This document shows positions 60,661 to 64,000 of a DNA stretch of 64,000 nucleotides, piece by piece; position 1 is the first letter of the stretch; each line of letters opens with the position of its first letter. This DNA comes from Elusimicrobiota bacterium. Lineage in GTDB: Bacteria > Elusimicrobiota > Elusimicrobia > UBA1565 > UBA9628. The position numbers and the translations under genes were made by a program. The notes under the pieces are model-generated. The model had not been told where the DNA came from. It saw only the letters and a program-made list of their open reading frames with translations, and did no database searches. Where the stretch lies: positions 1-64,000 of the forward strand of contig PLZD01000050.1 of NCBI GenBank assembly GCA_003151975.1, read 5' to 3'.

Positions 60661-61233
60661 ATGCTGCGCAATAGACCTAATTTTCTCCTCATCGCCGCGC
60701 TGGGCGCCCTGACGCTCGCCGCCTGCGCCCCCAAGCAGGTCAAGAAGGACGCCGCCGACCAAGCCAAGAACAAGGGCAAGAACGCAGCCGACCAGGCCAA
60801 CTACGCGCCGCCGACCGACGTCACGGAGGCCTCCCTGCGCGCCGGAGAGTTCGTCAACGTCGACGGCCTCGAGAATGTCCGCTTCGACTACGATAGCGCC
60901 AATCTGAAGGAAGAGGCCCTGACGGTCCTGAAGAACAACGGCGAGTACATCAAGAGCCACAAGGACGACGACTTCCTGATCGCCGGGTTCTGCGACGATC
61001 GCGGCACCATCGAGTACAACCTGGCCCTGGGCCAGAAGCGCGCCAAGCAGGTCCGCGAGTACTACATGAAGCTGGGCATCTCCGGCAACCGGATCGCGAC
61101 GATCTCCTACGGCAAGGAGAATCCCCTCTGCAGCGACGCCACCGAGGAATGCTGGGCCCAAAATCGCCGCGGCGAGACCCGCGCCCGCGCCCGCACCGCG
61201 TCCAACGGCACCACCGAACAGACGCCGCAATGA
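60661..61233 (+). CDS. pal: Peptidoglycan-associated lipoprotein Pal
   Basis: 190 residues. Lipobox LAAC (about Cys22), then an OmpA-like domain: VRFDYDSANLKEEAL, IAGFCDDRGTIEYN, LGQKRAKQVREYY. It binds peptidoglycan and links it to the outer membrane in the Tol-Pal complex. Clear Shine-Dalgarno GGAGGA. Overlaps the CpoB-like gene by ATGA. Confidence 0.95.
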   Translation: MLRNRPNFLLIAALGALTLAACAPKQVKKDAADQAKNKGKNAADQANYAPPTDVTEASLRAGEFVNVDGLENVRFDYDSANLKEEALTVLKNNGEYIKSHKDDDFLIAGFCDDRGTIEYNLALGQKRAKQVREYYMKLGISGNRIATISYGKENPLCSDATEECWAQNRRGETRARARTASNGTTEQTPQ

Positions 61234-62018
61234 CCCGGGCTCTGCTCCTGCTGGGGATAGCCTTAAGCCTCTCGTCCTGCGTCGCGACCCAGGCCGACGT
61301 CCTGGCGATGGAGAACCAAGCCGACAACTTGAAGGCGCAGATCACCGATCTCAAAGCCACCATCACGTCGATGCAGGCTAACCAGGCCGACCTATCCGTG
61401 CAGATGAAGCAGCTGCACGAAGACCTCAACGCCTACACCGAAACGAGCAAGGCCAACCAGGATCAAATGAGCCGGCTGGCCTCCAAGCTCGACGACATGA
61501 GCGCGGGAGTCAAGAGCTCGGTGGCTTCCATCGGCTCGACGCTGAGCGCGGCGCAAGCCAAGGGCCTCCAGGACCAGGCGAAGAGCCTCGAGGAGCAGAA
61601 GGCGGAGCTCGAGAAGCAAGCCGCCGCCGGAAACCCGACCGACCTCTTTAATACCGCCGACGTGCGGCTGCAGACCAAGAGCTTCGCGCTCGCGGCCAAG
61701 GGCTTCGAGGAGTATGTCGGGAAATTTCCCAAGGGCGCGCTGATCGACGTCGCGATCTTCAAGCTCGGCCAAGCCTATTACGGCGAGCGCAAGTGGGAAT
61801 CGGCGGGCCGGCAGTTTGGCACCGTGCTCGAGAAGTATCCCAAGAGCGAGATGACCGCCTCTTCGCGCCTGCTCTACGCGATGTGCCTGATCAGCATGAA
61901 GAAGAGCCTCACCGAGGCGCGGCAATATCTCGAGTCCATCCCCAACGATTTTCCGACAAGCCCCGAGGCCAAGGCCGCGGCGCGGGAGCTCAAGAAGCTG
62001 AGCAAGAAGGGCGCATGA
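61230..62018 (+). CDS. cpoB: CpoB/YbgF-like coiled-coil and TPR lipoprotein
   Basis: 262 residues from ATG 61230. Lipobox LSSC (Cys16), a coiled coil at about 25-125 and C-terminal tetratricopeptide repeats (AAKGFEEYVGKFPKGALIDVAIFKLGQAYY). CpoB coordinates peptidoglycan synthesis with Tol-mediated constriction. Usual CpoB is periplasmic without a lipid, so the lipobox is noteworthy. Confidence 0.85.
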   Translation: MTRALLLLGIALSLSSCVATQADVLAMENQADNLKAQITDLKATITSMQANQADLSVQMKQLHEDLNAYTETSKANQDQMSRLASKLDDMSAGVKSSVASIGSTLSAAQAKGLQDQAKSLEEQKAELEKQAAAGNPTDLFNTADVRLQTKSFALAAKGFEEYVGKFPKGALIDVAIFKLGQAYYGERKWESAGRQFGTVLEKYPKSEMTASSRLLYAMCLISMKKSLTEARQYLESIPNDFPTSPEAKAAARELKKLSKKGA

Positions 62019-63301
62019 GCCTCGCTCTTGCGCTCGCGCTCCTGCTCTCGGCGGCGCCCGCCCGCGCGGAGACCGACGTCTACATCAAGCTCGCGGGTCA
62101 AGGCGGCGCCGCGGTATTGCCGCTCGGCCTTCCCCCTTTCATCGCGCAGGACCCGGCCAAGACCGCGGACGCTCTCCTCGCCAAGCAAGCCCAAGACCTC
62201 GTCCGGGCGGACCTGATGCTCTCGCGCTACTTCAACATCATGGAAGACGGCCCGCATTTCGACGGCGCCAACGTCGCGGCCATCGCGCCCGACTGGAAGA
62301 AGCGTGGGGCCGCGTGGATCCTGCTCGTGCAGGTCTCGGCGCCCGAAAAGAAGCTCTCGATTTCCGCCAAGCTCTACGACGTCAACTCAGGCGAGACGAT
62401 CTTCGAGCGCTATTACCGCCAGGATGCCGACTTTCTGCGCGCGGCCTCGCATCGGCTCTCCGACGACCTCGTCAAGGCGCTGACCGGAAAGAACGGCATC
62501 GCGCACACCGAGATCGCCTTCGCCAACGATCAGAACGGGCATAAGGAAATTTTCATGGCCGACTACGACGGCGCCAACGTCCGCCAGCTGACCCACGACG
62601 CCTCCATCGATCTGCTGCCGCGCTTCTCGCCCGACCGCAAGCTGCTGGCCTTCACGACGTACAAGGAAAACAATCCCGATCTCTTCATGCTCGACCTCGA
62701 GCACGGCAAGCGCCTGCCCGTCTCGCAGGAGCAGGGCCTCAACATCGCGGGCGGCTTCTCGCCCGACGGGACCCAGCTGCTGATGACGCTCTCGCGGGAA
62801 AGAAGCCCGAACCTCTACGTGCGCAACATGACCGACGGCAGCGTGACCCAGCTCACCCAGCACTTCGGCGCCGACAGCTCGCCGACCTTCTCGCCCGACG
62901 CGGGCCAAGTCGCCTTCGTCAGCGACCGCTCGGGCAACCCGCAGATCTACATGCTCGACATGACGACGCAGCGCGCCAAGCGGCTCACGAACCTGAACTG
63001 GTGCGACAGCCCCTCGTGGTCGCCCACCGGTGAATGGATCGCCTTCGCGGGCCGCGTCAACGTCAAGGACCATCTCGATATTTATCTCGTCGACGTGACC
63101 GGCAACCAGATCCGCCAGCTGACCAGGCTCGCGGGCTCCAACGAGAATCCGTCGTGGTCTCCCGACGGCCGCTTCCTGGTCTTCACCTCGACGCGCGACA
63201 ACAAGAAGCCCGAGCTCTTCATCATGGACAACGACGGCTCGGCCCCGCACCGCCTCGTCGAGCTCCCGGGCGGAAGCTACACGCCGAACTGGTCGGACTA
63301 G
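62015..63301 (+). CDS. tolB: Tol-Pal system protein TolB
   Basis: 428 residues from ATG 62015 overlapping the CpoB stop (ATGA). Signal peptide ending near ARAETD, an N-terminal domain to about 160 and a six-bladed WD40-like propeller with repeated FSPDG motifs (RFSPDRKLLAFTT, GFSPDGTQLL, TFSPDAGQVAFVS, SWSPTGEWIAF, SWSPDGRFLVF). Binds Pal in the periplasm. Order pal-cpoB-tolB differs from the canonical tolB-pal-cpoB. Confidence 0.95.
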   Translation: MSLALALALLLSAAPARAETDVYIKLAGQGGAAVLPLGLPPFIAQDPAKTADALLAKQAQDLVRADLMLSRYFNIMEDGPHFDGANVAAIAPDWKKRGAAWILLVQVSAPEKKLSISAKLYDVNSGETIFERYYRQDADFLRAASHRLSDDLVKALTGKNGIAHTEIAFANDQNGHKEIFMADYDGANVRQLTHDASIDLLPRFSPDRKLLAFTTYKENNPDLFMLDLEHGKRLPVSQEQGLNIAGGFSPDGTQLLMTLSRERSPNLYVRNMTDGSVTQLTQHFGADSSPTFSPDAGQVAFVSDRSGNPQIYMLDMTTQRAKRLTNLNWCDSPSWSPTGEWIAFAGRVNVKDHLDIYLVDVTGNQIRQLTRLAGSNENPSWSPDGRFLVFTSTRDNKKPELFIMDNDGSAPHRLVELPGGSYTPNWSD

Positions 63302-63306
63302 AAGCT

Positions 63307-64000
63307 TTGCGCCAGATCGTTCTTCGCGGGACCGTAGTTCACGGCGACGGACGCGGCCGGCAGTTGGGCTTTCCCACGGCGAACATCAAGGTCGAAGGCT
63401 CGGTCCTGCCTGAATTCGGCGTCTATGAAGTCGAGGTCGCGAGCAAATTGCTTTCCCGCCGGCGCGCCGTCTGCAACGTGGGGCGCAGGCCCACGATCGA
63501 GGGCTCCAAAGACATCCACGTCGAAGTCCACATCCCGGATTTCTCCGGCGACCTCTACGGCCAGCGGCTGACGGTCGCCTTTTCGAGAAGGCTGCGCGGC
63601 GAGAAGAAATTCGACTCGCTCGACGACCTCAAGGCCCAGATCCGCGAAGACGTCGCGGCGCTCAACAGAACTCCGTGGTCATTATTCGCGGCCTTGGGCG
63701 CCGCCGTCGCGATCGCTTACGGCTTGACGCTGGCCGGGCCCTTCGTGATCGACGACATCGGATTCGTGCGCGACAACGCGGTCTTCCGCCTCCCCTTCGG
63801 CGATTTTCTGCGCGCGCTCTTCTCGGCCGACTATTTCCGGCTGACCGGCGAGCGCACCTATCAGCCGCTCGTGACCTTTCTCCACTACTTCATCCACGCA
63901 AGCCCGCTGGCCTGCCGCGCGTCCGGCTTGCTGATCCATGCGTTCAACGCGGTGCTCGTCTTCCTGCTCTGCCGCAAGCTGAGAGCCGGCGAGAGGAGCT
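63307..64000 (+). CDS. Riboflavin kinase domain fused to GT-C-type membrane protein (3' end outside window)
   Basis: 231 residues are visible from TTG 63307, 5 nt after tolB. Residues 1-118 are a riboflavin kinase (RibF C-terminal) domain: VLRGTVVHGDGRGRQLGFPT, NVGRRPTIEG, VEVHIPDFSGDLYG with the catalytic Glu73, and QIREDV. No FAD-synthetase domain precedes it. The frame continues without stop into a transmembrane helix at about 125-143 and VIDDIGFVRDNAVF, RTYQPLVTFLHYF and LLIHAFNAVLV, the start of a GT-C protein of PMT/TMTC type. This combination is new to me. A frameshift that removes a stop cannot be excluded but nothing suggests one. Confidence 0.85.
   Translation, partial: MRQIVLRGTVVHGDGRGRQLGFPTANIKVEGSVLPEFGVYEVEVASKLLSRRRAVCNVGRRPTIEGSKDIHVEVHIPDFSGDLYGQRLTVAFSRRLRGEKKFDSLDDLKAQIREDVAALNRTPWSLFAALGAAVAIAYGLTLAGPFVIDDIGFVRDNAVFRLPFGDFLRALFSADYFRLTGERTYQPLVTFLHYFIHASPLACRASGLLIHAFNAVLVFLLCRKLRAGERS

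Follow-up and report, generated by a model that had tools for sequence, protein, structure and literature searches.

An ordinary ATP:riboflavin kinase (RFK), the only FMN-making enzyme detected in the source genome, has probably become the cytosolic N-terminal domain of a TMTC-like GT-C membrane protein with TPRs. The gene lies at the end of the window, the stretch of 64,000 nucleotides analysed here, which corresponds to positions 1-64000 of an 80,755-base contig (C58) in a genome of 4.64 Mb (68 contigs, 96% complete, 3.6% contaminated). Judged by its sequence, each half of the fusion is a member, or a close likeness, of a known family, and the combination of RFK, GT-C and TPRs appears to be new, seen once as far as genome searches and papers show.

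The fusion gene and its junction

The features of the locus are the following, given in window coordinates:

60661..61233, + strand, pal-like OmpA-domain lipoprotein (OmpA PF00691, E 1e-19)
61233..62018, + strand, cpoB-like TPR/coiled-coil protein (YfiO/TPR matches)
62015..63301, + strand, tolB (TolB_N and PD40 repeats; 5-base gap to the fusion TTG)
63307..63663, + strand, RFK domain, fusion residues 1-119, TTG start (PF01687, E 7e-39; sole flavokinase found in the genome; fold match with Z up to 19.2)
63664..63681, + strand, junction N-R-T-P-W-S between the RFK C-terminal helix and TM1 (placed from the model helices, the ends of relatives' RFKs and the starts of unfused GT-Cs)
63682..64000, + strand, first part of the GT-C membrane region, with TM1, first outer loop and TM2 (the gene continues beyond the window with further TMs and TPRs)
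63682-63738, + strand, TM1 of the fusion (part of the GT-C region)
63751-63756, + strand, DD of the first outer loop, residues 149-150 (part of the GT-C region)

The fusion is encoded by a 598-codon frame without internal stop, read past the window edge, from the TTG at 63307 to a stop at contig positions 65101-65103, and comprises the RFK (residues 1-119), the TMTC-like GT-C membrane part (about 120-470) and the C-terminal TPRs. The start codon is not preceded by an obvious Shine-Dalgarno sequence, and tolB and the fusion gene are probably on the same transcript. The first-pass annotation, made from the window, had described one frame joining a complete RFK to a membrane protein directly behind pal-cpoB-tolB. 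Both points hold: the frame is open to 65103 with the Flavokinase match on residues 2-119, and 5 bases lie between the end of tolB (63301) and the TTG. The remainder of the GT-C domain and the TPRs, which it had expected past the edge, are present.

The junction peptide is EDVAALNRTPWSLFAALG. The free-standing RFKs of relatives stop only a few residues away from where the GT-C sets in in the fusion, and the start codons of unfused GT-Cs lie 16-20 residues ahead of the position that aligns with fusion Tyr138 (residue 19 of the GT-C part). The natural ends therefore coincide with the weld, and little is lost in the fusion except the tail of the RFK and the codon at which the GT-C would start. 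As sequenced, the frame contains no possible start for the GT-C from the RFK core up to TM1; the sole one is a TTG within TM1. GC content by codon position is similar in the RFK half, the GT-C half and tolB.

It is unlikely that two separate genes, rfk and one for the GT-C, overlap here and have had their frames joined by one spurious base, an artefact of sequencing or assembly. Single-base insertions and deletions were tried across a 70-base interval, and two plausible genes result only if one base is taken out within about 63677-63706, the RFK then lying in a 139-codon frame and the GT-C starting from a GTG 11 codons before AIAYGLTL. That stretch, however, lacks runs of more than 3 bases, the GTG would start the GT-C too late (about 14 residues before the aligned Tyr, against 16-20 in homologues), and the RFK, GT-C and nucleotidyltransferase matches of the genome are all free of internal stops. 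The two genes are separate in all relatives, which favours the artefact and is the kind of result the first-pass annotation had named as evidence against a fusion; these relatives are from other genera and have rfk in a different operon, so they do not decide the junction.

The same fusion, for which a search of close relatives had been proposed, was found at none of 71 RFK loci read by frame in 70 relatives, nor among 84,980 species genomes scanned with peptide patterns drawn from every part of the protein, a scan that may leave out entries for this genome or one very close to it. Among the phylum-wide frames listed, RFK frames longer than 440 aa were only those of G000, G051, G196 and G011; in G051 and G011 the frame extends upstream and not downstream (G196 lay outside this reading). 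The RFK of G002 carries a hydrophobic tail of 52 residues, which is probably a chance frame. No published RFK joined to a glycosyltransferase or to a membrane protein was found.

The kinase and the GT-C halves

The RFK half matches Pfam Flavokinase (PF01687) on residues 2-119 with 133 bits against a cut-off of 19.6, far beyond chance. The match covers profile positions 3-120 of 124, and in the comparison with the RFKs of its bacterial family it has the best score, 137 bits. The motifs reported by the first-pass annotation were recovered as GFPTAN (21-26), VEVHIPDF (72-79, with the catalytic Glu73) and DLYG (82-85, the adenine loop G/D-x-Y); the roles of PTAN, the catalytic Glu and DLYG in RFK have been described (PMC2573891). 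This is the sole flavokinase found in the 96%-complete genome. A full-length ribF, which might have stood elsewhere, was not found in it, and full-length RibF models score far below cut-off on the fusion. The FAD-synthetase half is missing as first noted, FAD_syn (PF06574) being found neither in the frame nor in the genome.

A structure model of the window part of the protein, built with 20 homologues from a genome scan, presents a complete six-stranded RFK barrel with a C-terminal helix (105-119), followed four residues on by the first membrane helix (124-143). Model residues 1-123 match solved RFKs with Z of 19.2-10.6, against 6.8 or less for unrelated folds; beyond residue 123 the model is weak (pLDDT 35-60). 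In a tree of 58 RFKs the fusion RFK falls among its own family on a branch that is not unusual. From motifs, profile score, tree position and predicted fold we infer that the fusion RFK is a working enzyme. Two differing RFK genes were identified in one relative, G004, L036 (C9:3122-3460) and L037 (C52:2-337), with 62% and 56% identity to the fusion RFK; L037 groups in the tree with the RFK of G012.

The GT-C part is homologous to the family's unfused GT-C-TPR proteins (best 43% identity, E 9e-97), with ten matches in its own genome, and the C-terminus of the fusion matches TPR_2 (E 5e-15). Neither Pfam PMT/DUF1736 nor another meaningful GT-C match was obtained for the part past the edge, even at E 5. 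Compared with published motif definitions (PMC7801869), the fusion has SKET for KE(T/Q)xxT, the last Thr being changed, and DRYLY for (D/E)RxxY; D149-D150, in the first outer loop, is conserved in nearly all aligned GT-C homologues. RxD and DW are not kept, and SHKSYRP is present only as TYQPL. The membrane part is thus placed among the GT-Cs on the strength of its likeness to the homologous GT-C-TPR proteins of the family together with the TMTC-type motifs. Since RxD, DW, the full SHKSYRP and a DUF1736/PMT profile match are lacking, it is best regarded as TMTC-like and is not filed as TMTC. The earlier description as a PMT/TMTC-type protein is in this way borne out by homologues and motifs but not by Pfam.

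Seven clear hydrophobic segments, and perhaps one or two weaker ones, were identified between the RFK and the TPRs, along with the acidic first outer loop. The loops after TM2, TM4 and TM6 contain 4, 5 and 3 Lys/Arg, and those after TM3 and TM5 one each. Positively charged loops face the cytosol (the positive-inside rule), so the RFK at the N-terminus is predicted to be cytosolic and the DD loop of the GT-C to lie outside; on which side the TPR tail lies would follow from the precise helix count. The predicted topology would suit the expected substrates of both domains, with ATP and riboflavin inside and a polyprenyl-phosphate sugar and its acceptor outside. A paralogue elsewhere in the genome (L174, contig C26:13556-14878), with 40% identity to the GT-C part, has PPPVDQG in place of the catalytic-type DD and is perhaps an inactive GT-C; it comes after a transglutaminase-like gene.

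Proposed dismantling of RibF and origin of the locus

The family of the source genome comprises 44 genomes from 12 genera and was compared with a set of 50 outsiders. In this family the RFK forms a protein of its own, about 125-140 residues long, whereas the rest of the order and class contains the usual RibF; in one survey RFK was fused in RibF in 1190 of 1194 bacterial genomes (PMC2972280). FAD_syn above cut-off was identified in 6 of the 44 family genomes, as short frames without RFK, against 47 of the 50 outside. The missing FAD-synthetase half, on this comparison of genomes, is not due to the fusion, because the RFK stands free without that half throughout the family. The FAD_syn frames too short for RFK belong to G002, G003, G007, G035, G036 and G039, five of which carry the RibL-like protein described below as well; these frames may encode a separate FMN adenylyltransferase or have another function.

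A RibL-like protein, resembling the archaeal-type FAD synthase (L142:1471-1860, corresponding to genome contig C12:14259-14648), is encoded between tatA and tatC. Matches with an E of 1e-40 or lower were obtained in 40 of the 44 family genomes and in none of the 50 outsiders, the four family genomes without one being 62-75% complete. A tatA-like motif was present near the gene in 26 of 30 homologues fetched. The best solved relative is 3glv (E 7e-17, with LGYDQ in common), and no RibL model was among the NCBIfam matches. Its nucleotidyltransferase signature is HxAH, not HxGH, in all 30 members aligned, within a conserved AGCFNRxHxAH. We infer that, before the family diversified, the FAD-synthetase half of RibF gave way to this RibL-like enzyme.

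The family rfk is usually the last gene of a nusA-infB-rbfA-truB-rfk operon, the ordinary place of ribF. Among 40 family rfk loci the same-strand neighbours were infB (32), truB (27), nusA (21) and rbfA (20), the gene names being assigned by reading cluster sequences. This operon was not identified in the fetched parts of the source genome, and rfk beside tolB was not seen in relatives. The region of the fusion is rich in similar genes, since a YfhO membrane protein is encoded upstream, the next gene downstream encodes a DUF2079 protein, and 5 kb on there is a further GT-C-TPR gene. Relocation of rfk followed by a weld to its GT-C neighbour is the simplest account.

The sequence of events would have been as follows. 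RibF was presumably trimmed to the RFK alone in the family as FAD synthesis passed to the RibL-like FMN adenylyltransferase; in the source lineage rfk would have left its place behind truB and landed behind tolB, beside a GT-C gene, and the loss of the stop/start pair between them would have welded the two genes. The kinase would form FMN and ADP from riboflavin and ATP at the inner membrane face, and the GT-C would move a sugar from a polyprenyl-phosphate donor at the outer face. Neither activity would have to depend on the other, and a functional tie to glycosylation is only a possibility.

No match to RibH (lumazine synthase) was obtained in the source genome, and 31 of 42 family genomes have one; the missing match suggests that the source lineage is probably auxotrophic for riboflavin and takes up the vitamin. 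This absence, together with the RFK predicted at the cytosolic membrane face, would fit a fusion kept since tethering matters, with the kinase at the inner membrane trapping the incoming vitamin or coupling the FMN level to envelope glycosylation. Such a selected role is quite improbable. A riboflavin transporter was not identified in the genome (the ECF type is absent and none adjoins the fusion gene), the GT-C is not a transporter, 10 other family genomes also lack a RibH match yet have no such fusion, and the fusion is from one genome only. The fuller picture of a membrane-tethered FMN factory is rather doubtful as well: here a probable riboflavin non-maker, with half of its RibF replaced by the RibL-like enzyme, would have its sole RFK anchored through a few residues at the inner face of a GT-C, and vitamin capture would thereby be linked physically, perhaps functionally, to envelope glycosylation.

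A domain without kinase activity, with another substrate or serving as a sensor for the GT-C, favoured by the unusual context alone, is very improbable against the retention of all catalytic motifs, the best profile score in the family, an ordinary branch and the lack of any other FMN-making RFK among those found. The preferred reading is thus still that of an ordinary kinase carried on a GT-C protein. Of the two guesses made by the first-pass annotation, reuse of the kinase fold for another substrate does not agree with the intact motifs and the absence of another RFK in the searches; FMN production brought to the membrane is the better guess, given these same observations and an N-terminus predicted to be cytosolic.

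Riboflavin kinase is essential and nearly always forms one half of a bifunctional cytosolic enzyme in bacteria; the family presents the dismantling of such an essential enzyme, the fusion presenting one fate of the freed domain. From the swap across the family one would predict a new group of FMN adenylyltransferases characterised by HxAH. If confirmed, the fusion would be a bacterial FMN synthase anchored at the membrane and a clean case for separating neutral from useful gene welds.

Comparison with known systems

The RFK module is like that of bacterial RibF (RFK/FMN adenylyltransferase, FADS type I) in sequence, motifs and fold; the fusion differs in lacking the N-terminal FMN adenylyltransferase module, in having a C-terminal GT-C with TPRs and in not lying behind truB. 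Monofunctional RFKs (eukaryotic RFK, B. subtilis RibR and Entamoeba RFK) likewise lack the FMN adenylyltransferase partner (PMC2972280; PMC11423594), but are free proteins, whereas the fusion RFK is joined to a membrane protein. Entamoeba has a 131-aa RFK and an archaeal-type FAD synthase, the same split as in the family of the source genome (PMC11423594). The plant FHy/RFK, a HAD phosphatase fused to RFK, also combines RFK with an unrelated partner (PMC2972280), although its partner, a flavin phosphatase, is soluble, precedes the RFK in the chain and is predicted to be cytosolic. The TMTC/PMT-type GT-Cs with TPRs resemble the second half in the multi-spanning part, the DD of the first outer loop, KET, (D/E)RxxY and the C-terminal TPRs (PMC7801869); the fusion differs from them in having no RxD, DW or Pfam GT-C match, in TYQPL for SHKSYRP and in the RFK at its N-terminus.
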